Shown piece by piece: positions 3,218-56,534 of a stretch of 64,000 nucleotides of DNA; position 1 is the first letter of the stretch; the number at the start of each line of letters is the position of its first letter. Origin of the DNA: Edaphobacter lichenicola (GTDB lineage Bacteria > Acidobacteriota > Terriglobia > Terriglobales > Acidobacteriaceae); the NCBI RefSeq assembly GCF_025264645.1, contig NZ_CP073696.1, positions 1,116,001-1,180,000 on the forward strand. The letters are read 5' to 3'. The notes below the pieces were generated by a model that saw only the letters and a program-made list of their open reading frames with translations, had not been told where the DNA came from and did not search any database. A program made the translations under genes and the position numbers.

Positions 3218-3970
3218 ATGTCCGGCCACTCAAAATGGGCGACAATCAAGCATAAAAAGGGCGCTCTTGACGCCAAACGCGGCAAAATCTTCACCCGCCT
3301 CATCAAGGAAATCACCATAGCCGCCAAGACCGGCGGTGGCGGCGATCCCGACGGTAACCCACGCCTCCGCGGAGCCATCGCCGCAGCTAAAGCAGAGAAT
3401 ATGCCCGCCGACAACATCAAGCGCGCCATCCAGCGCGGCACCGGCGAGCTCGAAGGCGTCAGCTACGAAGAGATCACCTACGAGGGCTACGGCCCCGGCG
3501 GCGTCGCTCTCATCGTCGACGTCCTCACCGACAACAAAAACCGCGCCGTCAGCGAGGTTCGTCACGCCTTCTCCAAAAACGGCGGCAACATGGGCGCCGA
3601 AGGTGCAGTCGCCTGGATGTTCACCAAGAAGGGCGTCATCACCATTGCCAAGGACGCAGCCAGCGAAGACAAACTGACCGAGATCGTCCTCGAAGCCGGA
3701 GCCGAAGATCTCTCCGACGAGGGCGAAAACTGGGAAGTTCTCTGCGATCCAAAGGACTTTGAAGCCGTTACCGAAGCTCTCAAAGCCGCCAAAATCACCC
3801 CCGAACACGCGGAGGTCACGAAGATCGCCTCGACCTACACCAAGCTCGAAGGCGCTCAAGCCAACGCCATGATTCGCCTCCTCGAAACCCTCGAAGACCT
3901 GGACGACACCCAAAACGTCTACTCCAACTTCGACTTCGACGAAGCAGCCGTAGCCAATGCCAGTCACTGA
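3218..3970 (+). CDS. yebC: YebC/PmpR family DNA-binding regulator / translation factor
   Basis: The 250-residue product starts [15 protein letters not shown] and contains [15 protein letters not shown] and YEGYGPGG, hallmarks of the YebC/TACO1 family, and has the usual length. Family members bind DNA as transcriptional regulators (PmpR) and have also been linked to relief of ribosome stalling on proline-rich sequences. GAGG at about 3208 sets the start. A factor-independent terminator follows at 3996-4020. In many bacteria yebC sits beside ruvC; no ruv genes are visible here. Confidence 0.95.
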
Positions 3971-3995
3971 TTCTGAACGGTAGCTCAGCCCCAAC

Positions 3996-4020
3996 GGCCG
4001 CCGTTCATCGGCGGCCTTAT
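3996..4020 (+). terminator. rho-independent terminator after yebC
   Basis: A seven-base GC stem, GGCCGCC (3996-4002) with GGCGGCC (4010-4016), closes a seven-base loop and is followed by TTATT. It lies 26 bases after the yebC stop codon. Confidence 0.7.
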
Positions 4021-4054
4021 TCTGCACGCATCTTCCATACAACCGGAGACATCA

Positions 4055-4801
4055 GTGACGAAAAGCACGCAACGTATCGGAGCCATCACCATCTGGTCCT
4101 TCGCCCTTCTGTTGTCCGTTGCCCGCTACGCCTCCGGACAATCCGCGCCGAACAGCACCACGCCGTTCCGCGATTCCACCGGCCATCAACCGCTGGAAAT
4201 AGGCGCCATCGTACAGAGCGGCTTCGGCGTCACCGAAAATCGCGACGACTTCAAGTTCCTCCTGGCTGGGGTCCACGCTGGCAAAGTGCTCACCGACAAC
4301 GTCGGCCACGGGCCCCTCCGCGGCAACTTCGAGTACGCCGTCGAGGTCTTCCCCTTCTGGCAGTCCTACACGCCAAAGTTCCAGCGCCCAACCTGCATCA
4401 ACCCACCCGGCACCGTACCCGTATGCTCACCCTTCTACACGGTAGGAGGCACCTTCACTGGAATATCCATCACTCCCATCATTCTTCGTTGGAACGTAGT
4501 CGGTACCAAACGATTCTCCTTCTGGGGTCAGGCCGCTGGGGGGCTCCTCTGGACGAACCACAAGTATCCGGCATTCGGCGGCCCACCCTACAACGAGCAG
4601 AACGACGGCCCCAACGCCGACGCCAGCGTCTGGAACTTTACACCTCAGGGCGGAGTCGGTGTTCACTACTTCCTTCGCCCCCGCCGCTCCATTGACTTCG
4701 GCGCCAACGCCGTCCACATCTCCAGCGCCTCTCTCGGAGACCGCAACCCAGGCGTCAACGCCAGCGTCCAGTTCTCGCTCGGCTACACCTGGTGGAAATA
4801 A
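4055..4801 (+). CDS. acyloxyacyl hydrolase, PagL-like lipid A 3-O-deacylase
   Basis: The 248-residue outer-membrane protein has a signal peptide (SFALLLSVARYASGQ). The C-terminal part shows the PagL signature: NAVHISSASLGDRNPGVN, matching the family's HxSNa...pNpG pattern in which the His and Ser are catalytic. It ends with SLGYTWWK, a typical beta-barrel terminal strand with an aromatic near the end. PagL enzymes remove the 3-O acyl chain of lipid A in the outer membrane and alter recognition and permeability of LPS. The family is short and divergent, so deacylase activity is likely but not certain. It stands alone downstream of the yebC terminator. Confidence 0.7.
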   Translation: MTKSTQRIGAITIWSFALLLSVARYASGQSAPNSTTPFRDSTGHQPLEIGAIVQSGFGVTENRDDFKFLLAGVHAGKVLTDNVGHGPLRGNFEYAVEVFPFWQSYTPKFQRPTCINPPGTVPVCSPFYTVGGTFTGISITPIILRWNVVGTKRFSFWGQAAGGLLWTNHKYPAFGGPPYNEQNDGPNADASVWNFTPQGGVGVHYFLRPRRSIDFGANAVHISSASLGDRNPGVNASVQFSLGYTWWK

Positions 4802-4895
4802 CCGTGGTGCAGGGAATAGTGTGTTCACCATCAAATCCAAGTAAGCGTAGAACAGGACAAGCCAGGTCGTTGCAAATCCCTAATCCCTGCTCTAT

Positions 4896-5810
4896 ATGAA
4901 CCCAGAAGCCATCATCGAGTGCGTCCCAAACTTCTCCGAAGGCACCGACACCGCCAAGGTTAAGCAGATCGTCGCTGCCATGCAGGTAGAAGGCGTGCGC
5001 CTGCTCGACTGGTCGCTCGACACCGCTCACAACCGCTCCGTCGTCACCATTGCCGGCTCCCCCTCTGGCATCGTTGAAGCCGCCGTCCGCGCCGCTGGTA
5101 AAGCAGCCGAACTCATCGACCTCACCACCCAAAACAGCGTTCATCCCCGCATCGGCGCTGCCGACGTCATCCCCTTCATCCCCGTCAGCGGAGCGTCCCT
5201 CGCTGAGTGCGCCGTCCTCGCCCGTAACGCCGGCCTCCTCATCTGGCGCCGCTACGGCATCCCCGTCTACTTCTACGGAGCCGCAGCAGCCCGTCCCGAC
5301 CGGGTCCTCCTCGAGGACATCCGCCACGGCCAGTTTGAGGGCCTCCGCGACGCCGCACGCCGCGATGCCGCACGGCGTCCCGACATCGGCGGCCCCGAGC
5401 TTCACGAGACTGCTGGAGCAAGCGCCGTCGGAGCCCGCAGCTTCCTTATCGCCTACACCATCCACCTTCAGCAGCCCGACATCGCAGCGGCCCGCGCCAT
5501 CGCTCGCGACATCCGCGCCGCGAACGGTGGCCTCCACGGCGTCAAAGCCATCGGCGTGCTGTCCAACGGCCGCGCCCAGGTCAGCATGAACATCACCGAC
5601 TTCAACCTCACCCCGATGCGCCACGTCCACAACACCGTCCAGCATCTGGCCCAGCGCCACGGTGTCCTCATCGAAGACGCCGAACTCATCGGCCTCATTC
5701 CCCAGGCCGCATACGAGCCGGACGCCGAATGGATCCGCCAGATAACCGGCTTCAACCCGGATCACAAAGTGTTAGAGCGCAAACTCGTCGCGCCTATTGA
5801 ATGGCCATAA
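4896..5810 (+). CDS. ftcD: glutamate formimidoyltransferase
   Basis: The 304-residue product begins with ECVPNFSEG and continues with LLDWSLDTAHNRSVVTIAG, which are diagnostic of the formiminotransferase domain of FTCD. The length matches the stand-alone enzyme without the cyclodeaminase domain. It transfers the formimino group of N-formimino-L-glutamate to tetrahydrofolate, the last step of one histidine degradation route, in the cytoplasm. The HPRIGAADVIPFIPV segment is part of the folate-binding domain. No hut genes are adjacent in the window. There is no strong ribosome-binding site before the ATG, but the homology starts at residue 6. Confidence 0.92.
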   Translation: MNPEAIIECVPNFSEGTDTAKVKQIVAAMQVEGVRLLDWSLDTAHNRSVVTIAGSPSGIVEAAVRAAGKAAELIDLTTQNSVHPRIGAADVIPFIPVSGASLAECAVLARNAGLLIWRRYGIPVYFYGAAAARPDRVLLEDIRHGQFEGLRDAARRDAARRPDIGGPELHETAGASAVGARSFLIAYTIHLQQPDIAAARAIARDIRAANGGLHGVKAIGVLSNGRAQVSMNITDFNLTPMRHVHNTVQHLAQRHGVLIEDAELIGLIPQAAYEPDAEWIRQITGFNPDHKVLERKLVAPIEWP

Positions 5811-6002
5811 TCGAATAACGATCAACAAACGATACTGAACGATCTGGATCAGCAACCCTGCCTCCAAATCACGCCAGCTAACACGAAAGTAGCAAGTTTG
5901 CTAACAAATCACGGCCCATCCAGTCTTGATACTTGAGCGTATTCACGAAACAATAGAACTACTGACGCTACACTGTCTGTAGCAAATGGAGTAAAGGTAA
6001 CC

Positions 6003-6962
6003 ATGACATCGATCAAGCAGAATCTCATCACCGCGGCCGTCGCCCTCACGACCTTCATGGCCCCCACCTTCGCCACCGCCGCGCAGCTCTCAAGCGACGC
6101 CAAGACCTCCATCCTTAAAGATGTCCAGCAGCTCATCGTCGTCGATTATCGAGCCATGCAGAACTCGACCGCTGCCATGGACCTCAAAGACCGCGTCCTG
6201 CCTCCCGAACTCAAGCGCCTCGAGACCGCCCTCAAGAGCTCCGGCCTCAAGGTCGACCAGGATGCCGACGTTCTCGCCTTCGCCTCCTTCCGCGAGCAGG
6301 CCGGTCAGGGAACTCGCATCGTTGGCATCGCCCAGGGCCAGTTCCACACCCGCGAGATCATGGCCAACTTCACCAAGAACAAGATCAAGCCCAGCATGAT
6401 TCGCAACAACAGCGTCTATCCCATGGGCTCCAACGGCATGAGTGTCGTCTTCCTCAACCAGACCACGATGGTCTTCGGCGACAGGGAAGCCGTGAAGGAA
6501 GCGATGGACGCCCGCGATGGCATCGTCTCAAACTTCCTCTCCAACAGCGATATGGTCAACGATATGGCTGCAGTTGACTCCAAGGCAGTCTGGAGCCTCC
6601 TCGATGCCAAGGGCACCCAGACCATGATGAAGGGCGTCCTCGGTGATGCCTCTCAACTGGCCGACTACGACACCGTCAAAAACCGCATGAAGAGCAGCCG
6701 CTACACGATGGACTTCCAGAACGGTGTGAAGTTTGATTTGGCTGTCGTCATGTCCGACACCCTCACCGCCGCGACCGCAGCCACCCTGCTGAAGGGCGTT
6801 TCGATCATGCGCAAGACAGCTGGCTCACCGCTCGAAAAGTCCGCGCTCGATCAGACCACCATCGACTCCGGCGCAGGGACCCTGACCGTGGACTACTCCT
6901 CCTCGGACAGCCAATTCGCCAGCCTCCTGACCTCGCCGCTCTTCCAGTCGGTAGTCAAGTAA
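6003..6962 (+). CDS. exported protein of unknown function
   Basis: The 319-residue product has a clear signal peptide (LITAAVALTTFMAPTFATAA) and is otherwise soluble. GAG and AAAGG upstream of the ATG support the start. I recognise no catalytic motif. The body alternates charged helices with a repeated pattern (LVVDYRAMQNS; GREAVKEAMDARDG-like segment near residue 160). Its style matches a family of acidobacterial periplasmic proteins without assigned function. A strong terminator follows at 6994-7037. Confidence 0.7.
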   Translation: MTSIKQNLITAAVALTTFMAPTFATAAQLSSDAKTSILKDVQQLIVVDYRAMQNSTAAMDLKDRVLPPELKRLETALKSSGLKVDQDADVLAFASFREQAGQGTRIVGIAQGQFHTREIMANFTKNKIKPSMIRNNSVYPMGSNGMSVVFLNQTTMVFGDREAVKEAMDARDGIVSNFLSNSDMVNDMAAVDSKAVWSLLDAKGTQTMMKGVLGDASQLADYDTVKNRMKSSRYTMDFQNGVKFDLAVVMSDTLTAATAATLLKGVSIMRKTAGSPLEKSALDQTTIDSGAGTLTVDYSSSDSQFASLLTSPLFQSVVK

Positions 6963-18853: not shown

Positions 18854-19067
18854 GAGTCTCCCGAACAGATCCCGTGATGCTCGAAGAATATGCGTGGACG
18901 CAAATGTCAGGCAAGGAAATTTGCTTGCTCCCACAACGAGACGGCAAGAATGCCAAGTCTGAGTTGCGGTGATGTCTCATCGTAGAAGCGTCTTGAGGCA
19001 TAGTGATGGTCCGGCAAAAAATGCGATACTCAGATGAAGGCAAAGAAGATCGGGATTGAAGAAAAGA

Positions 19068-20153
19068 ATGGACGCCCCTGGCGAACTCAACGAAATTGTT
19101 CTTCCGCAGACCGTGGTCGGTCCGCTTACGCGGTCGGCGATCTTTCTGGTGCTATGCGCCCAACAGGACGAAGATGCTTACACGCGCCTGCGCGACTTTT
19201 GCGCCGGTCTCTCCGGGCTGATTCGCGCAGTGGAGTTTCGCGACGTAGAGGCGGGCCTTACCTGCGTCGCCGGATTCGGGTCGGATGCATGGGACAAGCT
19301 CTTCGGAGCGCCTCGTCCCGCCGAGCTTCATCCATTTCGTAGGATTTGCTCCGGGGGACGCGATGCCGTCTCCACGCCGGGGGACATCTTCTTCCACATT
19401 CGCGCCAAACGAATGGATCTGTGCTTCGAACTGGCGACGCAGATCATGGACAGCATCGGCGACATCGTCTCCGTGGCCGATGAGGTGCACGGCTTCCGCT
19501 ACTTCGACGACCGCGATGTGATCGGCTTCGTCGACGGAACGGAGAATCCGCGGGGTGATGCGGCGCGCGAAGCAGCGGTCGTCGGCAGCGAAGACCCGGC
19601 CTTTACAGGCGGCAGCTACGTCATCGTGCAGAAGTATCTCCACGATTTGAAAGCGTGGAATTCGCTCCCGGTCGAGATGCAGGAACGCATCATCGGCCGC
19701 CGTAAGCTCTCGGACATAGAACTGAGCGACGCGGAAAAGCCCGCATACGCACACAACGCACTCACCAACATCGAGGAGAACGGACGTCAGCTCCAGATCC
19801 TGAGAGACAATATGCCCTTCGGGCGTCCTGGCCACGGCGAATTCGGAACGTACTTTATCGGCTACAGCCGCACGCCGCGCGTCACCGAGACCATGCTCGA
19901 AAACATGTTCGTGGGCCGGCCGCCCGGAAACTACGATCGGCTGCTCGACTTCAGCCGTCCCGTGACCGGCAGCCTGTTCTTCGCGCCGTCGGCAACATTT
20001 CTCGACAACGTCACGCCCGACGCGCCCGTCGCAGCGGAAGATGCAAAAGCACCATCCGCCGAACCGCCTTCGTCGCCACCTTCACCGGCACCCGGCACCG
20101 CGCACGACACATCACTCAAAATAGGATCACTAAAGGGAGAGAAAGATGAATAA
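19068..20153 (+). CDS. DyP-type peroxidase, encapsulin cargo
   Basis: The 361-residue heme peroxidase has GFVDGTENP (153-161) with the catalytic Asp of the GxxDG motif, the likely proximal His in YAHNALTNI (about His229), and the conserved Arg in ILRDNMPFG. A TTG at 19056 is an alternative start, but the ATG at 19068 follows GAAGAAAAGA. Beyond the catalytic domain lies a Pro/Ala/Ser-rich linker (residues about 320-345) ending in TSLKIGSLKGEKDE. This matches the known cargo-loading peptide of encapsulins (core xxLxIGSLKG). The stop overlaps the encapsulin start by eight bases, so the pair is translationally coupled. It oxidises dyes or phenols with peroxide inside the shell. Confidence 0.95.
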   Translation: MDAPGELNEIVLPQTVVGPLTRSAIFLVLCAQQDEDAYTRLRDFCAGLSGLIRAVEFRDVEAGLTCVAGFGSDAWDKLFGAPRPAELHPFRRICSGGRDAVSTPGDIFFHIRAKRMDLCFELATQIMDSIGDIVSVADEVHGFRYFDDRDVIGFVDGTENPRGDAAREAAVVGSEDPAFTGGSYVIVQKYLHDLKAWNSLPVEMQERIIGRRKLSDIELSDAEKPAYAHNALTNIEENGRQLQILRDNMPFGRPGHGEFGTYFIGYSRTPRVTETMLENMFVGRPPGNYDRLLDFSRPVTGSLFFAPSATFLDNVTPDAPVAAEDAKAPSAEPPSSPPSPAPGTAHDTSLKIGSLKGEKDE

Positions 20154-20958
20154 CCTCCATCGGGAGCTGGCACCGATTTCTGACGCGGCATGGGCGCAGA
20201 TTGAGGAAGAGACGACAAGAACACTGAAGCGGTATCTGGCCGGGCGACGCGTTGTGGATGTTCCTTCGCCGGGAGGAATCGCTTTTCCTGGAGTCGGAAC
20301 CGGGCACCTGAAGAACATCTCCGCTCCTGCAGAAGGCATCCTCGCGAGACAGCGTGAGGTGAAGCCGCTGGTGGAGCTCCGGGTTCCGTTCGAACTGTCG
20401 CGCCAGACGATCGACGATGTGGACCGCGGCTCCGATGACTCTGACTGGCAGCCTGCAAAGGACGCTGCGAAGAAACTAGCCTTCGCGGAAGATCGCGCTA
20501 TCTTCAACGGATACCATGACGCGGATATTCAAGGCATCCGCGAAGGCACCAGCAACCCCATCGATACACTGCCCGCGGATGTACGGGATTATCCGGATGC
20601 AGTGGCGCACGCGCTGAGCCAACTGCGACTGATGGGCGTCAACGGGCCCTACTCGGTTGTGCTGGGGGCCGAAGAATACACAGCGCTCGCCGAGACCCGC
20701 GATCACGGATATCCCGTGCTCGAGCATGTAAAGCGCATCGTGGACGGCAACCTGATCTGGGCACCTGCGATTGAAGGCGCATATGTTCTGACGACGCGAG
20801 GCGGCGACTTTGAGCTGAACCTGGGACAGGATGTTTCGATCGGCTATCTGAGCCATACCGATTCCGCCGTGCAACTGTATCTTCAGGAGACGTTCGTCTT
20901 CCGAGTGCTCACCAGCGAAGCATCGATTGCGTTGTCGCCGTCAAAGAAATCTTCTTGA
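20146..20958 (+). CDS. enc: encapsulin shell protein (family 1, linocin-M18-like)
   Basis: The 270-residue product begins MNNLHRELAPISDAAWAQIEEE, followed by LAGRRVVDV.GP-like PSPGGIAFPGVGTGHL, the usual start of family 1 encapsulins with an HK97-type fold. Length is standard for the 60-subunit T=1 shell. GAREGTSNP-like IREGTSNPI and DGNLIWAPAIEGAYVLTTRGGDFELNLGQD are further conserved segments. AAGGGAGAG precedes the ATG. It encloses the upstream DyP peroxidase through the C-terminal peptide of that enzyme. Function is probably oxidative stress defence. No terminator stood out after it. Confidence 0.95.
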   Translation: MNNLHRELAPISDAAWAQIEEETTRTLKRYLAGRRVVDVPSPGGIAFPGVGTGHLKNISAPAEGILARQREVKPLVELRVPFELSRQTIDDVDRGSDDSDWQPAKDAAKKLAFAEDRAIFNGYHDADIQGIREGTSNPIDTLPADVRDYPDAVAHALSQLRLMGVNGPYSVVLGAEEYTALAETRDHGYPVLEHVKRIVDGNLIWAPAIEGAYVLTTRGGDFELNLGQDVSIGYLSHTDSAVQLYLQETFVFRVLTSEASIALSPSKKSS

Positions 20959-24550: not shown

Positions 24551-25666
24551 GAGTTCCTCTTCTTTATTGGATGGATGAGGGAGGATGCGGGTATTGTGAC
24601 GTGACGTAATACTTCTGTAAGCCTGCCATGTCCGAAGGTCATCGCAAAGGGGGGGGGGCAGAAAGTATAAGAGAGAGGCAGCCCCGTTACAACTGAGCGG
24701 TTTCGGCAAACTTCCGTATCCTCGCAAAAATTAGCTATGCGCCGTTGCGTTCGTAAGGAGTAGCGTGGCGAGCATGGACGCGGACTCCGCGCGTTTTTAG
24801 CAATCCGAAAAGACTATTGCGATGCAGAGCGATGGATGAGGGCCGCAATTTCGCCGAGGAATCCTTTCGCAAAAGCTTCGGGAGGATGGATAATCAGCAT
24901 GTCTAGATCATGTACGTTTGTACGAGAAAGCCATTCTGTGGGAGATGGTCGAGTGGCATCGGAATCCTTCTTGAAGCTAGTCCTCCACTATGTGGGCTGC
25001 TCCCGTAACGGAAGGTCTCAGACAACTTGAATACTGAACCGCAAGATTGCCTCTTTTGAAGAGATCAAATCATGAGGTATGGGAAGGCCTTGTTCGCGCC
25101 ATGCGTTGAGGCCGTCTGCGAAAGCCGCAATATTTCGGACGTCATGCTCTTGAACTCGAGTGCCACACGAGCTGAGAGAGCGCAGTAAAGAACAACCTCC
25201 AAGTCGGAAGGAAACGGGACATTGTGAGTCTCACGGACCTTGCTCGCGTCCAAGTGAGCGGAAGTCGGAATTCCTTGTGTACCTGTTCTCGTCAAGAAGG
25301 GCACCGCGAGACATGAACATGTATCGCGATCGGAAGATGATTGCGCTTCTCAGGTCTGTTGAGATATCGCAGGTAGGTTTCCCGGCCTTCCGGCATTTCA
25401 ACGCTTTCACTATAGGCGCATTGCCATTCCGCTGGAAATGATTCAAGAGAGTCCGGGTCATGCTCTTACCGGCGTATTCACGTGGACAGCGGCTCGCCTG
25501 AATGGGACGAAATCAGGAAGCCGACGCTTGGCAGGTTCGGAGAATGAGAACGCCATGCGCAAGCTGAAGACGAACGCAGGTCCGCTCGGGTTGGCAGGCT
25601 ATTGGCTATTCAAGAAAAGAGGCTCGGAATCGTCATCTCGTAAGCTTTTTAATATTAGTGAGTTCT
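24551..25666. other. long non-coding or decayed stretch before the tRNA scar
   Basis: About 1.1 kb holds no gene I can support. A run of ten or more G at about 24648-24658 is notable. Short overlapping frames on the minus strand (25065-25304, 25231-25461) share no recognisable family and look like decayed sequence. Confidence 0.4.
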
Positions 25667-25711
25667 TGGTTGCGGGGGTAGGATTTGAACCTACGACCTT
25701 TGGGTTATGAG
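25667..25711 (-). tRNA. 3' half of initiator tRNA-Met (CAT), attachment-site remnant
   Basis: On the minus strand the 45 bases comprise the anticodon loop CTCATAA (anticodon CAT), the 3' strand of the anticodon stem CCCAA, a variable loop, a complete T arm (GTAGG, TTCAAAT, CCTAC), the acceptor strand CCCCGCA and ACCA. The pattern of A72-A73 before an encoded CCA and the CTCATAACCC loop matches initiator tRNA. The sequence on the 5' side does not form the other stem strands (expected TTGGG, found GGTCG), so only the 3' half is present. This is typical of the displaced copy left by a tRNA-targeting integrase. Confidence 0.8.
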
Positions 25712-26285
25712 CGACCCCCGGAACGCGTATGTTGTTGACTTTACGGCACGAATGGCGACTTAAAAGTACCGAAAAGTACGCATTGGACAGGGTATTGGGA
25801 GTCAGTTGGGAGTTTTCTTTGTTCGTCTCCTCTTCGCTTTTCAACAGGCCGATTGCACCCTTGTTGGTGCATGTTTAGGAGAAGAAATGGCGTAAATAGG
25901 CCACCAACCTTTGGGCGGATTTCCCAAGGGTGGCCCTTCCCGCCCGCGCCATATGCGGACTTCAGAAAAACCGCCTTTTTTATCGGGCGCTATTGGGAGT
26001 TCGCGGTCTTTTCCAGTCGCGAAAACAGGCCCGTTTTCATTGAGGATCGTGTCACTTCGCAGCTTACGAACGTTGGGTCGTCCATAGAGTGTGCGCTGGG
26101 TGGTCCCGTAGAGAATATCGGGTTGCTGTAAAAACTTTGAATTGGGGCGAACCTTTAATAGCGCGGCGCACTAGTAAAGGTTGGAGCGACCCGCCAGAGC
26201 GCCACGCGATCGGCCGGGTTCAAGGCGAACGACCGCAAAGTTCGGGAATAGGCTCTCTCCACACAAGGTGGGCTTCATTGAAAAG
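25712..26285. other. intergenic stretch beyond the tRNA scar, no gene supported
   Basis: About 570 bases between the tRNA fragment and the AbiE-like operator. I found no credible gene or integrase in it, although this side is the expected island edge. Confidence 0.4.
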
Positions 26286-26313
26286 TGTCAGAAGTAAGCA
26301 TATACTTCTGACA
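26286..26313. promoter_or_regulatory. palindromic operator upstream of the AbiEi-like antitoxin
   Basis: A perfect 11-base inverted repeat, TGTCAGAAGTA (26286-26296) with TACTTCTGACA (26303-26313), has a six-base spacer and ends 11 bases before the ATG at 26325. AbiEi antitoxins repress their own operons by binding inverted repeats at the promoter, so this is a likely autoregulatory site. Confidence 0.65.
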
Positions 26314-26324
26314 GTAGGTGAATC

Positions 26325-26921
26325 ATGGAACGCCTCACAGAAGCCATTCTCCAAAGGACGAGCGCACTCCCCGAGGGAGCGCCGGTTAGCGCCAAGATGC
26401 TCCTACATCTTGGCAGCCGCCCAGCGGTGGACCAGTCTCTCTCGCGGCTCGCTCGGAGTGGCAAGCTACTGCGGGCAGGACGAGGGATGTATGTTTCCCC
26501 GGTCAAGAGCCGGTTCGGGACTAATGCACCCTCCGCACATCGTCTGGTCGAAGAGCTGTCCGCGCAGCGCGGTGAGGCTATTGTGCCCTCGGGTGCTACG
26601 TCCGCGAATGCGCTTGGACTCACCACCCAGGTTCCCACCCAGATGATCTATTGGACCTCGGGCCGGAGTCGCAAGCTCCATCTCGGGAAGCTGGTGATCC
26701 AACTGGTGCATGTCCCGTCCTGGCAACTCGCCTTTGCCAAGGAACGCGCCGGAGAGATCGTTCGCGCGCTGGCATGGGCCGGCCCGGAGAGAGTTCATGC
26801 GGTTCTGAAGGAGATCGAGGGGAAGGTGCCCCGAACCGAGATCCAGAAGGTCGCGCAGCAAGTCTCAAGGTTTCCGAGTTGGATGGCGAGCGCCTTGAGC
26901 CGGAGTGTCGTCGATGCCTGA
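26325..26921 (+). CDS. AbiEi-type antitoxin (DUF6088-like)
   Basis: The 198-residue product has an N-terminal winged-helix segment (VDQSLSRLARSGKLLRAGRGMYVSP, about residues 32-60), typical of AbiEi antitoxins, and then a ligand-like domain with LVEELSAQRGEAIVPSG. In this type IV toxin-antitoxin family the antitoxin opposes the nucleotidyltransferase toxin without direct contact, and represses transcription. It overlaps the toxin gene by eight bases. The palindrome at 26286-26313 fits its operator. Confidence 0.8.
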   Translation: MERLTEAILQRTSALPEGAPVSAKMLLHLGSRPAVDQSLSRLARSGKLLRAGRGMYVSPVKSRFGTNAPSAHRLVEELSAQRGEAIVPSGATSANALGLTTQVPTQMIYWTSGRSRKLHLGKLVIQLVHVPSWQLAFAKERAGEIVRALAWAGPERVHAVLKEIEGKVPRTEIQKVAQQVSRFPSWMASALSRSVVDA

Positions 26922-27405
26922 TAGCTACTTCCAATTGAGCACAAAGAATCAGGCCAGTGCCATTGCTGCGGCGTCGGATGCCTCTGGCCGCGCGCCTTAC
27001 TTGCTGGAGAAAGACATCTGGGTCGTCTGGGCGCTTTCGACCCTCTTTCAATCTGAGTTGGGAGCCCATCTCGTCTTCAAGGGCGGTACGGCTTTGTCCA
27101 AGGCGCACAAGGTCATCACCCGTTTTTCTGAAGACGTTGACCTCACCTACGACATTCGAGCACTGGCTCCTGAACTGGTCCGTAGCGCTCCCAGCGGCAT
27201 CGACGCGATTCCGCCCAGTCGCAGCCAGCAGAAGAAATGGTCCGATGAAATCCGCGGGGAACTTCTTCCAGCTTGGCTTCGCAATCATGCTCATCCCATC
27301 ATCCAAACTGGGTTGGAAGGGATGAAGAACGTATCCAGCCGTGTCACTGAAGACTGTAGCTTCACTCTTTTACTGCTAATAAGAATTCTGTTGCCGCTCA
27401 ATTGA
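26914..27405 (+). pseudogene. AbiEii-type nucleotidyltransferase toxin, C-terminally truncated
   Basis: The frame starts at the ATG at 26914, coupled to the antitoxin. It contains the toxin core LVFKGGTALSKAHKVITRFSEDVDLTY (residues about 51-77 split over the GGTALSK motif and the SEDVDL metal-binding aspartates), as in AbiEii/Type IV toxins. Only 163 residues are present; family members usually run to 250-320. From residue ~143 on, the sequence (VSSRVTEDC...) does not resemble the family, so the gene was cut at about 27330-27350. The toxin is probably inactive, which would leave the antitoxin as an orphan repressor. Confidence 0.8.
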
Positions 27406-32385: not shown

Positions 32386-33045
32386 TCAGATCCCATCGAA
32401 CAACCCACGCATCAGTGGCTCCGGTTTCTCTTTTTGCGGCTTAACCTTCGGCTCAGCCTGTAAAGGATCAATCTCAAGATCATCATCAGGAAGTACCCGC
32501 AACAGGTGAACAGGGGGCCTCTCATCTTCAGTCATCCACTCAGCATACTCACGCGGCTCTAGGATGACAGGCTGTCTGGTGTGGATCTCGCTCATCTTTC
32601 CATTGGGATCACTCGTGGTGATTGCGAATGTGTCTTCCCACTGGCCAGTCTTCGGATTCTGCCACGGTGCCCAGATGCCAGCCATGCCAAGAACATTGCG
32701 TCCTTTGGCTGTCAGCCGGTATTTGGGGCGTGGCTCAGATCCCGTCTTCTTCCATTCAAAGAACGAACTCGCAGGAACGATACAACGATTGTTTAGCCGT
32801 TCTTTCCAGAATGGAGAAGTGGTCAAGTTGTCCGCACGCGCATTGAATAGCAGACGATCAGGAAGCTTGAATCCCCAACGCATTTCAACGATCTCACGTT
32901 GACCATTAGCCATACGAATCACAGGCTGGACAGAGCCAGGAGCACATTCGATTCCTTCACCGAAATAGAAGTCTTCCAGATCAACAGAAACGTGGAACGC
33001 TTCAGCGATCTTTTGCTTTTGTCCTGCTTCGTATCGTCCACACAT
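32386..33045 (-). CDS. SOS response-associated peptidase (SRAP; YedK/HMCES-like)
   Basis: The 219-residue product begins MCGRY, with Cys2 that forms the thiazolidine DNA-protein crosslink with abasic sites after Met removal. FNARADNL, IVPASSFFEWKK and EIHTRQPVIL follow, carrying the conserved Asn, Glu and His of the active site. In the usual HxRMP motif, Met is replaced by Gln (HTRQP). The protein shields abasic sites in single-stranded DNA. Length is normal. It sits beside a relic of a second SRAP gene (33301-33372). Confidence 0.92.
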   Translation of the reverse strand: MCGRYEAGQKQKIAEAFHVSVDLEDFYFGEGIECAPGSVQPVIRMANGQREIVEMRWGFKLPDRLLFNARADNLTTSPFWKERLNNRCIVPASSFFEWKKTGSEPRPKYRLTAKGRNVLGMAGIWAPWQNPKTGQWEDTFAITTSDPNGKMSEIHTRQPVILEPREYAEWMTEDERPPVHLLRVLPDDDLEIDPLQAEPKVKPQKEKPEPLMRGLFDGI

Positions 33046-33373: not shown

Positions 33374-33772
33374 CTATTCTTCCTCCATCAATCGCTCCAT
33401 GCGCTCAAATGCCGTTTGCCAGCTTGCGTGTTGTTCGTTGCTTAAAGCTTCAAGCGTCTCCAATACCGATTTGGATGCGCCTTCTTTCTTCAGGAATTTG
33501 GTGAGAATTGCGATGTCATCGTCCAACCGATGAAGATTCTCGCTCTGGACGATGCGCACACGTTCCAATGCTTGGGCAGCGTCGAAAACAGACTCAGCAC
33601 TTGTGAAAGGATTCGAGGTTCTAGCGGGAGGCTTGCGATCAACAAATTTCAATGTGTCCGTTCTGACCCTAAAACGCTCCAGGTTGGTTCCCTCAAAGCC
33701 GAGGCGAACCTCATCTCCACGCGGACTGACTTGAGTGACCACCCATGTTGATTCGGAGCCTTCTGGAATCAC
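33374..33772 (-). CDS. small protein of unknown function, coupled to the STAND ATPase remnant
   Basis: The 132-residue frame starts at a GTG that overlaps the stop of the ATPase remnant by four bases (GTGA). The N-terminal half looks like a small beta domain (TWVVTQVSPRGDEVRLGF), and the C-terminal part is helical and acidic, with a predicted coiled coil ending in MERLMEEE. I do not recognise it. Because the ATPase frame stops here, the ORF may be part of a downstream gene joined by deletion, or a real operon partner. Confidence 0.4.
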   Translation of the reverse strand: MIPEGSESTWVVTQVSPRGDEVRLGFEGTNLERFRVRTDTLKFVDRKPPARTSNPFTSAESVFDAAQALERVRIVQSENLHRLDDDIAILTKFLKKEGASKSVLETLEALSNEQHASWQTAFERMERLMEEE

Positions 33773-34200
33773 TTTGTCACCCGCGTTGCCGTTGCGATGA
33801 CACTAGCAGGCAGCACGAGCTCTTCATAGCTGCTCCGAACGCTTACGGCGACAGCGATCCACGGCGATCTCGCAATCAGCTTGAGGAATGCGCTCATGTG
33901 GTCCGGCCAGATCGCTCTTCCTGCGCCTTCATTGAGCGCGTCGATCATGACCAGCACTCGTGCATTAGCCGCTTGCGCTACACACTCTAATGCACCCACG
34001 AAATCGCCCGCCGACCACTGCGCGAGATCCAGTTGCTGTAACGCCTGCGTCCAGGGTTCCGCCGGCTGCACAAACCGTTGCCCCATGAGCAGCACTGTGG
34101 GCAGACCGGCCTTCTGACGTTTCAGCGCAAGATCGCAGAAGAGATGCGTCTTGCCCATGCCCGCAGTACCGTTCAACAGAAGCAGGACGCCCAGTTCAAT
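33769..34200 (-). pseudogene. Avs-like STAND NTPase, internal fragment
   Basis: In the minus frame, beginning at about 34200 and ending at a TGA (33769-33771), the residues read VLLLLNGTAGMGKTHLFCDL with Walker A GTAGMGKT, then GLPTVLLMGQRF, a Walker B ARVLVMIDALNEG, and SPWIAVAVSVRSSYEELV. This is the conserved NTPase core of Avs (AVAST) and related antiphage STAND proteins, including the DALNEG and VRSSY motifs. Avs proteins are over 1000 residues; here both the effector and sensor parts are gone. An IS110 relic abuts the upstream side. Probably a dead defence gene. Confidence 0.75.
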
Positions 34201-34820
34201 GCGACTGCGCTCGATAGTTCGCCATATCGAGAGCCTGTCTGTGCAGAGCGCTCAGAATCAGAACCGTCTTCACGCGGCTCGCGGGTCCACTTCCACCCCC
34301 AGCTGCATTGTTCAAAATTTGAAGCGATCCGTGACGTCTCTAGAGTTACGTATCCGCAAACTTCGCCGCGAAGCCTTAACACTCGTCCGACAGGACGAGT
34401 TGCTCTGCAATCGATTTGAGCTGTTGGTAAGCATTCCGGGCATCGCACAGGTGAGCGCGATGCAATTGCTCGCAGAACTGTCTACACTGCCGTCAGACCT
34501 TACGGTACGAGAGTGGGTCGCTCATAGCGGTCTTGATCCCGCGCATGAAGTTTCAGGAAACTCAGTGAGGAAGGCGTCTCGCATCAGCCGTGCCGGAAAT
34601 CGTCACCTGAGAAGAGCGCCTTACATGCCGGCGCTTGTCGCATCTCGTTGCGATCCCCACGCAAAAGCGTTTTTTCGAAAGCCTGCTGGCTCGAAGGAAG
34701 GCCCGCCTACAGGCGCTCATTGCGGTGGCGAGGAAGTTGCTGCACGCCATATATGGGATATTTCGGAGTGGCCTGAAGTACGAGGGAGCAAAGCTGTTTC
34801 CAATGATCACGTTGTCCTGA
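34190..34820 (+). pseudogene. IS110-family transposase relic, frameshifted
   Basis: The plus strand encodes the C-terminal half of an IS110-family (Transposase_20) protein: FELLVSIPGIAQVSAMQLLAEL, REWVAHSGLDPAHEVSGNSV with the catalytic-Ser region, and SRAGNRHLRRAPYMPALVASRCDP. At about 34672 the frame shifts: the remaining tail FESLLARRKARLQALIAVARKLLHAIYGIF continues in another frame. The N-terminal DEDD nuclease domain is missing. It abuts the Avs-like fragment, which suggests that insertion or deletion here broke that gene. Confidence 0.8.
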
Positions 34821-35160
34821 CTTCAGAAGCGTTTGTGGTCATAAACCGGAGCGGATGAGTGCATTGGCCTGATATCGCCAACTGAGGTTCAACTTCCGGC
34901 TTGGCCTGTGAAGTACTGCGGCAGAGGACGTTGGGATCTCAGTTCTCGCTGCTTTGAGATAGTCGAAGTAGCAGGTGTGGAGAAGTGAGAAGTGGGTCAA
35001 GATCTCCATGCCCTTGCTGGTCAAAGTTTCAGCCATGTCTTTGTTCCCGCCCATACAGGAGCTGGTCCGTGGAGGGCCGAGACTGTATCGTTTCCTGGAA
35101 CGGCTGCCTGGCTGAAGCGGTGGATCCACCATAGACAACTACCCGGTCGGGCGACCCCCC
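34821..35160. other. intergenic stretch, weak minus-strand frame only
   Basis: A 99-residue minus frame (34839-35138) includes NKDMAETLTSKGMEILTHF, but I cannot assign it and it has no convincing start. No other feature is seen up to the terminator at 35161. Confidence 0.35.
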
Positions 35161-41459: not shown

Positions 41460-41997
41460 CCTCGGGGCCGTTTCGGCGGACTATGAGATCTCTCGTGAAC
41501 ATCGAGATACTCGTACTCGAGTCGCGCCTGCCGCCGATTATAATCCCGCAAGCGCCTGGCGCTCAGACGGTTGAGGCCACGGGTTTCAATGTTTATAACG
41601 ACGAAGCGACAGCCTACCTGTTTTACCAAGTATCACCGCACCCAGATTTATTTTGAATCTGGCTTCTGAAATGAGATTCGTACCGATCGTGTATCCCCAA
41701 TGTCAATTGGTGCCAAATCGCCGAGTCACTCATTTAGCCGTGATCGGCAAGCGGAAATCGTATTTCGCCAGGGAAGTTCTTCGGCTGAGATCAGCAATCC
41801 GTCTGCTCTCATGATCTCCTGCGCTCACTCTGAAAAGAGAAATATCCCCTCTGGACACCCCTAAAGAGAAAAGAAAAGCCTAGACAAGCGAGAGAGAATC
41901 TCTGCGGGCCTGTTCCTACCCGCAACACCGTCCCCAAAAGTTGGCGTGCGTTCCGTACGCAATGAGGAAGACAAGCTTCGCTAAGGGGTGAGTGTAC
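41460..41997. other. intergenic stretch, promoter region of the regulator
   Basis: About 540 bases between the regulator start and the IS-like left terminus. It must contain the promoter of the regulator/receptor unit. No gene is supported. Confidence 0.4.
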
Positions 41998-42007
41998 CGG
42001 AACATGC

Positions 42008-42038
42008 GTTACATTGTGGACCTGAGACATCCGTTACA
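42008..42038 (+). repeat. IS481-like terminal motif, left copy
   Basis: 31 bases beginning GTTACATTGTGGACCTGAG (42008) match 22 of 31 positions of the motif at 46460-46490 in inverted orientation; conserved blocks are GTTACA, GACC.GAGACAT and TTACA. Both ends face inward. Such paired motifs are typical of IS481-family termini. Confidence 0.5.
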
Positions 42039-42117
42039 AGCCCCTTGCGGTGGCGATGGTTCGAGTTGCGGGAGCACGAAAAAACATATATATACAGTCG
42101 TCGAGGCCGTGGGAATG

Positions 42118-42197
42118 TGGGAATCCCGAAGGGATTTCCAAAGAGTGTGGGAAGGGTGGGAAGCCGGCTTCATGGCTTTCCACCCTTCCCACACTCT
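42118..42197 (+). ncRNA. 24-bp hairpin in the IS110 leader, possible bridge (seek) RNA element
   Basis: Between the left end motif and the transposase start, AGAGTGTGGGAAGGGTGGG (from 42142) through 42165 pairs with 42174-42197 over an 8-base loop, 23 of 24 positions complementary. A smaller hairpin (42118-42139, GGGAATCCC ... GGGATTTCC-like) precedes it. IS110-family elements transcribe a structured bridge RNA from the non-coding region beside the transposase, so this leader is the place to look. A palindromic repeat unrelated to the IS is the alternative. Confidence 0.4.
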
Positions 42198-42261
42198 GTC
42201 TACTGGAATGGTCCGCCGCTTGTTTTACAGCAGGATTATCTTGGCGGGTAGGAGGCTTACC

Positions 42262-43290
42262 ATGGAAATCACAACACTCGGCATTGACCTAAGCAAAACC
42301 ACCTTTCACGTTATTGGGCTGAACGCACGAGGTGAGATTGTGCTGCGGAAGAAGTTCTCGCGTAAGCAGCTTCTAGTCTTTACTGCGAACCGACAGCAGA
42401 TCCTGATTGGAACGGAAGCCTGCGGAGGCGCGCACTACCTCGCTCGTGCCCTGCGGGAACAAGGCCATGACGTCAGGCTTATGCCGGCACAGTACGTGAA
42501 GCCCTACGTCAAGACGAACAAAAACGACTACCTGGACGCAGAAGCGATCGCGGAAGCCGTGCAGCGACCGACGATGCGTTTCGTGCCGATCAAAACTGAT
42601 GAGCAGCTGGATCTCCAGGCCCTACACCGGGTGCGCGATCGTTGGGTAGCAAGGCGCACTGCGGTCATGAACCAGATGCGCGGCTTCCTGCTCGAACGCG
42701 GCATCACGATGCGCAAGGGGCCTTCTCACCTGGCTGCGCAGCTGCAAATCATTTTCGGAGAAGGCAATTGCTCCTTCTCAGGACGGACGCAAGGTTTGCT
42801 TTTGGAGTTGAAGCACGAGTGGGATGAACTCGAAAGGCGGATTGAGGAAGCAAGCGCCGAACTCCAGCGGATTGCGAAACAGGATGATGCCTGCAGTCGG
42901 TTGATGGAGATCCCCGGCATCGGTCCGTTGGTGTCGACGGCACTGGTAGCGTCGGTCGGCAATGCAATCACCTTCCGAAAAGGAAGGGATCTGGCTGCAT
43001 GGCTGGGCCTGGTTCCACGCCAACACTCTACCGGGGGCAGGCCGAAGTTATTAGGCATTAGCAAGCGAGGAAATGAGTATCTGCGACGCATGCTGCTGCA
43101 TGGTGCTCGATCGGTGATGATGCAGGTCGAGCGTAATCCTTCGGCTCTGGGAGTATGGATTACTGATCTATCGAAGCGAAAGCATCACAACGTGACGGCA
43201 GTCGCCCTGGCTAACAAGATGGCGCGCATTGCCTGGGCGATGCTGACTCGAGGTAGCCATTACTCCGCCTCTCAGCTGGCCGTTGCCTGA
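42262..43290 (+). CDS. IS110-family transposase, intact
   Basis: GGAGG eight bases before the ATG at 42262 sets the start. The 342-residue recombinase has the N-terminal DEDD domain: GIDLSKTTFHV (first Asp), IGTEACGG (Glu) and KTNKNDYLDAEAIAEA (Asp pair). The C-terminal Transposase_20 domain has LMEIPGIGPLVSTALVASVG, the RQHSTGGRPKLLGISKRG segment with the catalytic Ser, and YLRRMLLHGAR. All key residues are present. The non-coding leader holds the hairpin at 42142-42197. The exact ends of the element cannot be set, as IS110 elements have no obvious inverted repeats. Confidence 0.92.
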   Translation: MEITTLGIDLSKTTFHVIGLNARGEIVLRKKFSRKQLLVFTANRQQILIGTEACGGAHYLARALREQGHDVRLMPAQYVKPYVKTNKNDYLDAEAIAEAVQRPTMRFVPIKTDEQLDLQALHRVRDRWVARRTAVMNQMRGFLLERGITMRKGPSHLAAQLQIIFGEGNCSFSGRTQGLLLELKHEWDELERRIEEASAELQRIAKQDDACSRLMEIPGIGPLVSTALVASVGNAITFRKGRDLAAWLGLVPRQHSTGGRPKLLGISKRGNEYLRRMLLHGARSVMMQVERNPSALGVWITDLSKRKHHNVTAVALANKMARIAWAMLTRGSHYSASQLAVA

Positions 43291-45241: not shown

Positions 45242-46405
45242 TTAGACCACTCGCCGTGCAGCTCTAAAACGAAGCTCCTCCACATTGAGTTCTCCGATCT
45301 CCATGTCTCGAAAGAAAACTCTATAAAACCCTGGTGTCACCGACTCGAATCCCAACTCTTCGAAACGGAATACCTCGCTGATGAATATTCTTGTCTTGTG
45401 CCAACTGATGTCTCCGCTATTGTTCACCCTTCGCAGAAGAAGTCCCTTCGGGTAGTTGAACTCCGGCAACTTGCGTGGGAGTCGGACGGAGCTGGGCTGG
45501 TAGAAACTCGCTGGAACTTGGTTGTTCAGCCCTTCGTGCGGACGCTCATTGTTGAACACGTAGCGAAAGTTATCGAAGCGGGTCTGCTGCGCGCGAAGGG
45601 ATGCCGCAGGCGGTACGGTTGTATCCTCCTTCAGCGTGCGGTGCATCCGTTCATGGCGACCGTTCTGCTGCGGTCGACCTGCTTGAATGCGCTCGTGGAC
45701 GATCCCGAGCTTCATCCAGCCGAGTGAGAGCTTCGACAGACCGAGTAGCCCTGTTCCCGCAAACGGTGCCCCGTTGTCCGTCCTTATTCGTGCTGGAACC
45801 CCGTACTCCCGCATGGCTGCTTCGCAGATTGCTCGAACCTGGCCAAGGTCGATACGTGAGACGATCTGGCAACGAATCAAGTAACGGCTATGCGCGTCGG
45901 TGATGGTAAACGGATCGCATCGCTTGCCGTCGCCAGTCGCGAAGTAGCCCTTGAAATCCATGCACCACAGCTGATTCGGACCCGTAACCAAAGAGAACGG
46001 TTCTGAGCATGGCGTGGTGCGTTTTCTTCTTCTCTGCGGACTGGTCAAGCCCGCGCGGCTCAAGATGTTGCCGAATGTGCTAGCTGCAGGCCATACCACG
46101 TCTGGTTGCAGCATTTCCAGCCTTGCCTTGAGTTTGCGTGCGCCCCAGGACGGATGCTTGGCACGAAGGACGAGGATGGCGTTCTCCATCGGCTCGAGCG
46201 TCGCGTGCGAACAGGTATGCGGTCGGCGGCTGCGATCCACGAGTCCCTCTGGCCCCGTCTCGTTGTAACGGTTGATCCAACGGTAGGCCGTTGGACGTGA
46301 GATCCCATAGACGCGACACAGGTCCGCTACTGACATCTCTTCCTTCTGATAACTCGATAGAAACTGCAAACGTTGATCCAAGATTCGACTCTCTTTCCAG
46401 GGCAT
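45242..46405 (-). CDS. IS481-family transposase
   Basis: The frame opens at 46435; the ATG at 46405 is preferred on homology. The 387-residue DDE transposase has a helix-turn-helix N-terminus (MSVADLCRVYGISRPTAYRWINRY), a helical spacer, and an rve catalytic domain: MDFKGYFATGDGKR (first Asp), RTDNGAPFA (second Asp) and GRPQQNGRHERMHRTLKED (final Glu). These spacings match IS481. Length is normal and no frameshift is seen, so it may be active. Its upstream terminus lies at 46460-46490; no matching end was seen just beyond the 3' end. Confidence 0.92.
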   Translation of the reverse strand: MPWKESRILDQRLQFLSSYQKEEMSVADLCRVYGISRPTAYRWINRYNETGPEGLVDRSRRPHTCSHATLEPMENAILVLRAKHPSWGARKLKARLEMLQPDVVWPAASTFGNILSRAGLTSPQRRRKRTTPCSEPFSLVTGPNQLWCMDFKGYFATGDGKRCDPFTITDAHSRYLIRCQIVSRIDLGQVRAICEAAMREYGVPARIRTDNGAPFAGTGLLGLSKLSLGWMKLGIVHERIQAGRPQQNGRHERMHRTLKEDTTVPPAASLRAQQTRFDNFRYVFNNERPHEGLNNQVPASFYQPSSVRLPRKLPEFNYPKGLLLRRVNNSGDISWHKTRIFISEVFRFEELGFESVTPGFYRVFFRDMEIGELNVEELRFRAARRVV

Positions 46406-46459
46406 ACAACATCGTGAGGCGTGCCCAAATAGCAAGAATCCGTACCCGTCGCGCTCCGC

Positions 46460-46490
46460 TGTAAACCATGTCTCCGGTCTGTTTTGTAAC
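46460..46490 (-). repeat. IS481-like terminal motif, right copy
   Basis: On the minus strand, from 46490: GTTACAAAACAGACCGGAG continuing to 46460. It is 55 bases upstream of the transposase start, where the left end of an IS481 element belongs. It matches 22 of 31 positions of the inverted motif at 42008-42038. Confidence 0.55.
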
Positions 46491-46660
46491 GGAAGTGCTA
46501 AGTACGCTCAGGGGCGCTGCCCCGATCGCGCGGCGCAAGGGTATCCCCAATCTTCCGCGCTTCGCTTGTGCAGACCGGCCTTCGGCCGCCTCCGCTTTGC
46601 TCCGGTGGGGAGACCCCTCCCCTTGCGCCTTGCTACCCCCGCCTTCGCCAGGTGGCGTTC

Positions 46661-46688
46661 GGCATGTACATGCCGCGTTTCAACGCGG
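46661..46688. promoter_or_regulatory. paired palindromes upstream of ardC
   Basis: GGCATGTACATGCC (46661-46674) is a perfect 14-base palindrome and CCGCGTT TC AACGCGG (46673-46688) a perfect 7-base inverted repeat; they overlap by two bases and lie 34-62 bases before the ardC ATG. They are likely operator sites for the ardC-parB operon. Confidence 0.4.
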
Positions 46689-46722
46689 ACGTGCAGCAGC
46701 CAAACCCAAGGAGGAAGCACCC

Positions 46723-47634
46723 ATGAACACCACCAGCAGCGTTACCCCAATCAGCGAAACCCCTAAACAACCGCAGCAACGGCAGACCGCCAAAGACATC
46801 ATCGCCGCCAACGTCAAGAGCCTTATCGAACAGCTTGAGGCTGGACACTCGGATGCACTCACCGCCTACCTCGACGCAATGAGCCGATTCCACAACTACA
46901 GCTTCGGGAACATTTTGGAGATTGCACGGCAGAGGCCGGACGCAACCCGCGTTGCAGGTCTCTATGCGTGGAACCAGCTTGGACGCAAAGTGATGAAAGG
47001 GCAGAAAGGTATTCGCATTCTGGCCCCGATTATCGGCATCAAGCGCAAGAAGGACGAAGAGGCCGAGCGAGACATCACCAAGCAGAACACCCGCGTCCTC
47101 GTCGGTTTCCGCAATGCCTATGTCTTCGATGTATCGCAGACCGAAGGCGCGGAGCTTCCCACCATGCGCGAGATGAGCGGCATGGTTGGCGAGAACCGCG
47201 ACCGTCTCGTTTCGTTCATCAAGCATCAGGGCATCGAGCTCGTCTTTAGCGAGAAGATTGCTCCCGCACTTGGCATCAGCTACGGCGGACGCATCGCCAT
47301 CTACCCCGGCCAGTCCGAGGCCGAGGAGTTTTCAACCCTTGTCCATGAACTCGCGCATGAGATGTTGCACAAGGCCGAACGTCGTACGACGACAACCAAA
47401 GTCGTGAAGGAGACGGAGGCCGAGGCGATTGCCTTTGTCATCGGCAAGGCCGTAGGACTTGAAACCGGAACGGCGAGCGCCGACTACATCAATCTCTATC
47501 ATGGCAACGCCTCACTGTTGGCCGAGAGCTTGGAGGTTATCCAGCAGACCTCCGGCGTCATCCTCGCCGCATTGCAGCCGCCGACCGAAGAACAGGCGGC
47601 GATGCCCGATGCAGAACTGGCGAAGGTGGCCTAA
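46723..47634 (+). CDS. ardC: ArdC-type antirestriction protein (DUF1738, ssDNA-binding, zincin)
   Basis: AAGGAGGAAG upstream of the ATG at 46723 fixes the start; the frame is open to 46468. The 303-residue product has the ArdC N-terminal ssDNA-binding domain (HNYSFGNILEIARQRPDATRVAG, KGQKGIRILAPI; about 30-130) and a C-terminal metallopeptidase-like part with HELAHEMLH zinc ligands. ArdC proteins travel on conjugative plasmids and integrative elements and protect incoming single-stranded DNA. It overlaps the next gene by one base and belongs to an operon with parB. Confidence 0.9.
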   Translation: MNTTSSVTPISETPKQPQQRQTAKDIIAANVKSLIEQLEAGHSDALTAYLDAMSRFHNYSFGNILEIARQRPDATRVAGLYAWNQLGRKVMKGQKGIRILAPIIGIKRKKDEEAERDITKQNTRVLVGFRNAYVFDVSQTEGAELPTMREMSGMVGENRDRLVSFIKHQGIELVFSEKIAPALGISYGGRIAIYPGQSEAEEFSTLVHELAHEMLHKAERRTTTTKVVKETEAEAIAFVIGKAVGLETGTASADYINLYHGNASLLAESLEVIQQTSGVILAALQPPTEEQAAMPDAELAKVA

Positions 47635-48050: not shown

Positions 48051-48131
48051 CCCTTTCCCGCCCGGAGCGGATAGGAGAGCGCGTCCGCTTCACAACACCC
48101 AACGCAGTCCAACCGCTCAAGGAGAGCAGCC

Positions 48132-53493: not shown

Positions 53494-53629
53494 GTCCCGG
53501 AATCCTCTAACTCGCTCAAAATTAGAATGATGGCGATAACTAAAATCTAGTCGTTGTTGCGCGGGGCAGCCATACTTTATAAGCTTAGCGCTATGCTTTC
53601 CAAGCATAGTGGATGCCGTGTAGGAAATT

Positions 53630-54553: not shown

Positions 54554-54625
54554 TGAATTACTCGGAGGGCAGTTTCAATCGGCTTCGAGATTCTAGTTAC
54601 GGGAAAGCTCTTCTCAGGTAAGCGA

Positions 54626-55186: not shown

Positions 55187-55258
55187 AAATCTTAGATGAG
55201 CTCAGTCTATTCCAAGCTCAAAAAATCGGCAGCCAAAATGACCAGCCCCAATGCGAGT

Positions 55259-55291: not shown

Positions 55292-55332
55292 CACTTGACT
55301 GCAAAATCAACGTTGCAGTCAGCAAACTAGGC

Positions 55333-56478: not shown

Positions 56479-56534
56479 TTGTGATCTCCTTTGCTAATGC
56501 GGTCGTCTATTGCCATTCATCGCTCCCATGATTG

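Follow-up and report, generated by a model that had tools for sequence, protein, structure and literature searches.

How does the 3' half of an initiator tRNA gene come to lie by itself, with no 5' half beside it? The window analyzed here (the whole stretch of 64,000 nucleotides from Edaphobacter lichenicola, G000:C1:1116001-1180000, in a genome, G000, of 5.66 Mb on a single contig) carries such a fragment at position 25667, which the initial annotation had taken for the scar of a tRNA-directed integration. We conclude that the fragment is almost certainly the far end of a ~50.3-kb integrative island (window 25667 to ~75998) that its own tyrosine integrase placed in the initiator tRNA-Met gene.

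The displaced tRNA half and its intact counterpart

ARAGORN detected no tRNA in the window. In L004, a stretch that extends beyond the window end (L004 position plus 62,000 equals window position), it found a sole tRNA-Met(CAT), on the minus strand at window-equivalent 75999-76075, with an RF00005 score of 63.5 bits. Inspection of this gene by eye revealed that A1 and A72 do not pair and that the anticodon stem is GGG/CCC, features that we take to define an initiator tRNA and on which we base the name used here. The two ends of the proposed island are as follows.

25667-25712, minus strand: attL, the 3' half of initiator tRNA-Met (nt 32-77, CCA included) in its displaced position; left end of the island
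L004 13999-14075, minus strand: attR, the intact, rebuilt initiator tRNA-Met (ARAGORN, RF00005)

Window positions 25666-25712 are identical to L004 13998-14044 (G000:C1:1191998-1192044) at 47 of 47 nt, in the same orientation. The tRNA portion of this repeat comprises 46 nt, beginning with the base that closes the anticodon stem and ending with the encoded CCA. The identification of the fragment as the 3' half of initiator tRNA-Met thus stands, as an exact copy of the last 46 nt, but the end first given to it, 25711, was one base short of the true end at 25712. It was also correct that only the half from anticodon loop to CCA is there: where the 5' half would lie, 22 of 31 positions are unlike the tRNA 5' part, and the immediately adjoining base already differs. 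A 21-nt piece of the fragment, with up to 3 mismatches allowed, occurs once in the window and in none of 100 shuffles. The intact gene had been expected to the right, on the same strand and with an identical 3' half, and that is where it lies, beyond the window, at a repeat-to-repeat distance of 50,332 bp.

A whole-genome tRNA search returned one intact copy of the initiator tRNA-Met in G000, which has 48 RF00005 matches in all; the other matches to the gene were the scar and one 26-nt piece. The latter, part of the 3' half at 96% identity, is isolated and intergenic (G000:C1:2254435-2254460; L005 4435-4460), and no integrase was found near it, either in the 501 bases around it or among open reading frames of at least 120 aa at 2500-6500 of the 10-kb stretch. 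At the scar itself, a 90-codon open frame (window 25438-25710) enters the tRNA fragment and terminates in LVAGVGFEPTTFGL, which is the plus-strand translation across the fragment; frames of this kind are prone to mis-annotation as proteins.

The unoccupied site and the displaced terminator

Insertion of an island predicts that the DNA to the left of the fragment once came after the tRNA.

25431-25665, minus strand: chromosomal sequence that originally flanked the tRNA gene on its 3' side, by homology to G052 and G002; terminator remnant in about the last 50 bases

Two relatives, each with one match to the tRNA in its genome, display the unoccupied site. In G052 the intact tRNA is followed directly by a homologue of 25431-25665 (flank-only score of 113 versus a control maximum of 64), and in G002 a homologue of 25508-25655 lies directly 3' of the intact tRNA (78 versus 34); these scores exclude the tRNA, and the maxima come from 2000 control pieces with the true region left out. 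Removing the island yields the site seen in these relatives, over a match limited to ~235 bp (G052) and ~150 bp (G002), and the proposed comparison with relatives lacking the insertion supports the reading over this short stretch. Farther left, gene order is not conserved in G052 or G002, and the comparison turned up no near-identical relative lacking the island. Large-scale gene order was useless as a test of the unoccupied site, since a search with 19.65 kb of the left side against 11 relatives gave scattered matches: those in G012 and G011 were collinear and lay to the same side of the tRNA, at a distance of more than 100 kb, and those in G014 lay on the opposite side. A desaturase left of the scar was likewise rejected as a syntenic anchor; it looks accessory, with close matches (84% and 79%) in only 2 of 41 genomes. 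Elsewhere in the window, at 19056-20958, the gene for an encapsulin (Linocin_M18) directly follows that for a Dyp-type peroxidase, and the two make up an encapsulated-peroxidase pair.

In G052 a terminator-like hairpin lies right behind the tRNA (-16.9 kcal/mol, z -3.0), and this hairpin is lost in the displaced window copy (-4.2 kcal/mol, z +1.1). The decay would fit relaxed selection after separation from the tRNA. It also bears on whether the fragment is an expressed tRNA half or a regulatory RNA that has been retained for function, for which the preserved exact identity with the tRNA 3' half could speak. Such identity, however, is expected if both copies come from one recombination event, and a functional RNA would have to be reconciled with the decay of the old terminator, with the lack of any Rfam match at the site at an E value of 0.5 or better (two matches over the window are both under their gathering scores), and with scars elsewhere that have diverged, to 93% identity in G023 and 91% in G010. 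We regard retention for function as extremely unlikely.

The integrase end

That the fragment is the scar of a tRNA-directed integration is supported at the other end, where a tyrosine integrase and an excisionase-like gene adjoin the intact tRNA with its identical 3' half.

L004 12255-12578, plus strand: excisionase-like HTH gene, 107 aa (PF12728; TIGR01764 over its cut-off)
L004 12551-13924, plus strand: tyrosine integrase, 457 aa, with a zinc-finger insert (PF00589 3.2e-19, PF24623, PF14659)
25793-25812, plus strand: predicted arm-type sites of the integrase, a pair of TTGGGAG copies 11 bp apart; another copy lies at 25991-25999

The integrase converges on the intact tRNA and is preceded by the excisionase-like gene. 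It keeps the GLRVSE, HTFRHT and VYG blocks and is not of the Xer or integron type, the XerA, XerC, XerD and integron models scoring far under their cut-offs and PF00589 above its own. Its zinc-finger domain (PF24623) occupies residues 341-382, inside the catalytic half. The insert is present in 7 of 12 aligned integrases adjacent to tRNA-Met, that of G000 counted, and in neither of the 2 adjacent to tRNA-Ala; it is therefore dispensable for the tRNA-Met target.

The motif T[GAT]GGGAG occurs at +82 and +93 past the core, inside the left end. Both offsets (+82/83 and +93/94) are occupied in the window and in L035, L038/L069, L148 and L150 (genomes G011, G021, G043 and G065); L034 (G003) has the +82 copy alone, L076 the +93 copy alone, and L042, L065 and L086 have the motif at neither offset. 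On the integrase side it lies 56 to 58 bp outside the core in 30 of 84 rows, G000 counted, a set that contains repeated places and tRNAs without islands, and TATTGGGAG is likewise found close to the island's other end. These recurring motifs may be integrase arm sites. Arm-type repeats at both ends, together with the excisionase-like gene, suggest that the island once could, and perhaps still can, excise.

A BON-domain gene lies on the 5' side of the tRNA in G000. Among 20 relative loci fetched, tRNA-Met is intact in 13, and a BON homologue stands beside it in 12 of these, 5' of the tRNA in 11 and 3' of it in G002. In the latter genome (L028 16312-17924), the orientation of the initiator tRNA and its 3' flank with respect to the BON-domain gene is the reverse of that in the other 11 loci compared, which suggests that a small segment was inverted at the hotspot. 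We also considered whether the island supplies a replacement terminator; the integrase side of G000 folds at -16.4 kcal/mol, but the corresponding values in G003 (-7.7), G011 (-4.4) and G021 (-7.2) indicate that this is not general, and the idea was dropped.

Recurrence at the same gene in related genomes

A scan of genome contigs for the integrase gave 68 loci, mostly from Acidobacteriaceae or Acidobacteria by record title, a few others being MAGs that carry the labels Rhodanobacteraceae or Verrucomicrobia. In 54 of the 68 loci the integrase is next to the initiator tRNA or its 3' half: within 500 nt downstream of the integrase match there is an intact tRNA-Met in 40, a 3' half only in 13, and in 1 a half after which the contig ends. 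In 5 loci tRNA-Ala stands beside the integrase, with integrase identities of 40 to 42%, and no tRNA core was seen in 9, of which 4 had 2 to 123 nt examinable and 5 had 203 to 500 nt. The tRNA-Ala loci and these last 5 weigh somewhat against the proposed explanation. G000 itself harbors, outside the window at G000:C1:1524782-1526130, an integrase relative (38% identity) ~130 bp from a different tRNA gene, and a second tRNA island in this genome is therefore likely.

Across 62 genomes of the genus, its own included, an intact copy of the initiator tRNA was found in 57 and at least one scar in 27. The rule used gave 34 scars, with 7 other partial matches set aside. Of the 34 scars, 21 share a contig with an intact gene, and 20 of these match it in strand and are found 3' of it, at distances from 15.6 to 251 kb. 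The one irregular case belongs to G058, where the scar is 1.16 Mb off and on the opposite strand; this genome also has a second, regular scar. The direction count excludes the other 13, for which the intact copy is on a different contig or is lacking from the genome. Twenty-five of the 34 scars stop at one anticodon-loop base (query position 46); that of G000 stops at 47. Just past the scar in G021 lies a second integrase (62% identity), which can be read as a tandem island.

Such uniform borders matter for another explanation, in which part of the tRNA gene was duplicated by homologous recombination or transposition and no integrase took part. The isolated 26-nt piece elsewhere in G000, with no island signs seen nearby, could be a product of that kind. 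The copy at 25667, in contrast, is bounded by CCA and the anticodon loop, where most scars of the genus stop at the same base, its native 3' flank moved along with it, and a tyrosine integrase lies at the other end. We consider duplication highly improbable and retain insertion by the integrase as the explanation of the fragment.

Cargo of the island

The initial annotation had pointed to accessory genes, defense relics and insertion sequences following the fragment, and all three kinds lie between it and the intact tRNA.

25667-64000, no strand assigned: island part inside the window; the remainder is in L004
26325-26921, plus strand: AbiEi-like antitoxin gene (DUF6088), first recognized cargo at the left end (PF19570; PADLOC PDLC02226 5.7e-60)
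26905-27405, plus strand: truncated AbiEii toxin gene, 166 aa, covering profile positions 3-118 of 309 (PF08843; PADLOC PDLC02289)
32386-33045, minus strand: SRAP-domain (SOS-associated peptidase) gene (PF02586)
33769-34176, minus strand: Avs2 defense gene fragment, 135 aa against a 1504-position profile (PADLOC PDLC02164 3.1e-54, profile 350-473)
34151-34858, plus strand: IS110 transposase, partial (PF02371; NF033542 below cut-off)
41992-43290, plus strand: IS110-family transposase (PF01548, PF02371)
45242-46435, minus strand: IS481-family transposase (NF033577, 227.7 bits, cut-off 224)
46468-49817, plus strand: ArdC-N / DUF6908 / ParB gene block (PF08401, PF21849, PF02195, PF17762)
50449-62725, no strand assigned: accessory cargo, comprising a sensor kinase, LysR, TetR, two old-yellow-enzyme oxidoreductases, two alcohol dehydrogenases, an NmrA-like gene and two response regulators (Pfam)

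Further cargo includes outer-membrane beta-barrel proteins, between the AbiE pair and the SRAP gene, and an M13 peptidase, to the right of the dehydrogenase genes. The GC content of the island (54.6%) differs little from that to its left (57.1%) and right (56.8%), a point against the island reading. Some of this content recurs in islands of relatives. AbiEi-homologous sequence adjoins the scar in G003 and L076, and the ArdC-N / DUF6908 / ParB block is common to relatives' islands at the same tRNA, with identities of 83%, 70% and 38% in G021 and, for the ParB protein of G003, 89% over residues 241-561.

Linkage of the two ends

Whether the scar and the integrase belong to the same element is best addressed by L076, a contig of the MAG Umea_bin-08653. 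It is also the nearest approach to a case that could have spoken against the scar reading, having the same fragment minus most of the cargo; since it keeps both island ends and integrase sequence, it supports that reading instead. In L076, sequence equivalent to window 26208-27296 (AbiEi and truncated AbiEii, 89% identity) runs with a 6-bp overlap into the equivalent of 74455-75311 (91% identity, covering the excisionase-like gene and integrase), which brings the two ends within 2.3 kb of each other; identity is 93% over 25666-25812. Sequence left of the L076 scar has no match to the left flank in the window. Whether L076 lost cargo or G000 gained it, this arrangement shows the window's left end and the integrase end to go together. 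In Umea_bin-08653 (L076 8394-10701 and L072 1-904), the AbiEii frame passes through the 6-bp overlap and joins, without a frame shift, the end of the excisionase-like gene; this hints that the MAG has a mini-island of ~3 kb, although both contigs stop inside the integrase.

It is nonetheless conceivable that two or more islands have merged, the scar coming from an older element, the tRNA-side integrase from a younger one, and the cargo being composite. Multi-scar arrays are common in the genus, with two scars in 7 of the 27 scar-bearing genomes, G021 has its second integrase just past the scar, and several transposases and two LysR genes lie within the island. The linkage of both ends in L076 argues against a merger, as does the joint occurrence of the same left end and an integrase 79 to 88% identical in G003 (on two contigs), G011 and G021. 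Moreover, no extra core was found between the ends in the whole-genome search or in the window search allowing 3 mismatches, none of the 9 integrase-like matches in the genome itself lies beside the scar, and the 600 nt outside the scar contain no HxRH-type motif. We therefore regard a merger as unlikely and continue to treat the island as one element. In the group as a whole, the 130 bp on the island side of the core are alike (0.53 to 0.78) in 10 of 25 other scar rows and score at most 0.24 in 15 (L038 and L069 are one place among the 10, L060 and L149 one among the 15), and some scars accordingly belong to islands with other left ends.

Proposed mechanism and relation to known systems

In the model that we propose, an attP site with a copy of the tRNA 3' half would have been recombined by the integrase with the same segment of the chromosomal gene. 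The copy brought by the island would have completed the tRNA gene at the integrase end, and the chromosome's own 3' half, with its native 3' flank and terminator, would have been shifted by 50 kb to become the fragment at 25667, after which the displaced terminator decayed, as its comparison with G052 shows. The crossover presumably fell within the shared 46 to 47 nt, probably in the anticodon region, given the common anticodon-loop base at which 25 of the 34 scars stop; both copies being identical, the exact exchange point is unreadable.

This island is a tRNA genomic island of the Islander type, with an anticodon-centered (A) subsite and in the 3'-fragment class: an intact tRNA and a displaced fragment of the same tRNA lie on the same replicon and strand, the fragment on the 3' side and a tyrosine integrase between them. 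In the Islander catalogue (PMC4383910), a 3' fragment is present in 3760 of 3919 islands and an anticodon-centered site in 2083, and tandem arrays are also described. Islands in that account share with the one in G000 a tyrosine integrase, a regenerated tRNA, a 3' fragment at the far end, the required orientation, and a crossover segment that starts from the anticodon loop. The G000 island differs in its Acidobacteriaceae-relative host, in having the only detected intact initiator tRNA as its target, in the zinc-finger insert in the catalytic half of its integrase, and in a displaced native terminator that has visibly decayed, none of which makes it a separate kind.

Other classes of mobile element resemble the island in part. 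Integrative and conjugative or mobilizable elements (ICE/IME) share the integrase, an excisionase-like gene, ParB and ArdC-like genes and site-specific insertion in a tRNA. In G000, however, the genome has no PF03432 relaxase, its single match to the PF02534 coupling protein (at 2565576) is outside the island, and the Pfam scan of the 47 island ORFs, some of which overlap each other and to which the search for other relaxase families was confined, returned no relaxase, coupling protein or type IV secretion genes. With no PF03432 relaxase found, the island is probably not self-transmissible, and since no transfer genes were found, movement between cells would require a helper element, a phage or DNA uptake. 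A prophage in a tRNA gene would share the phage-type integrase (PF00589, PF14659) and the organization of the att sites, but no capsid, terminase, portal or tail family was found by Pfam in the same 47 ORFs. For Sinorhizobium, published accounts describe inserted sequences in which tRNA-fMet is involved (PMC11476347, PMC10460002); in PMC11476347, phage-related sequences of S. meliloti are inserted site specifically in tRNA genes, and several carry a tRNA-fMet gene. In S. meliloti, a member of another phylum, these are whole extra tRNA genes inside phage-related sequences, whereas G000 has a host gene restored by a 3' half, and its scanned island ORFs gave no virion genes. Solibacter has candidate islands close to tRNA genes, noted in an account whose available text does not name an initiator-tRNA site (PMC3174227). 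Our search of the open-access literature, which gives weak evidence of absence, returned no paper on initiator-tRNA islands in Acidobacteria.

The mechanism is an ordinary, textbook one, and its recurrence at one initiator tRNA gene across the genus is the most interesting part. To our knowledge, the mobile elements of this group of soil bacteria are little described, although this is an impression and not a count. A short, easily overlooked fragment has here led to an island with exact boundaries and to a recurrent integration hotspot. It is quite possible, if somewhat short of probable, that an Acidobacteriaceae island family with one chassis (shared attachment arms, an excisionase-like gene, an integrase whose catalytic half often bears a zinc finger and, in 3 or more genomes, a left-end AbiE pair) uses the single initiator tRNA gene as a genus-wide dock, with ~15 to 250 kb of cargo stacked, swapped and deleted while the chassis persists, and that every insertion separates the start tRNA from its native terminator. 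Because the target is the gene for translation start, detected as one intact copy, insertion must restore it exactly. With its native terminator lost, the G000 case offers a testable natural experiment in how an essential tRNA tolerates the rewiring of its 3' end.
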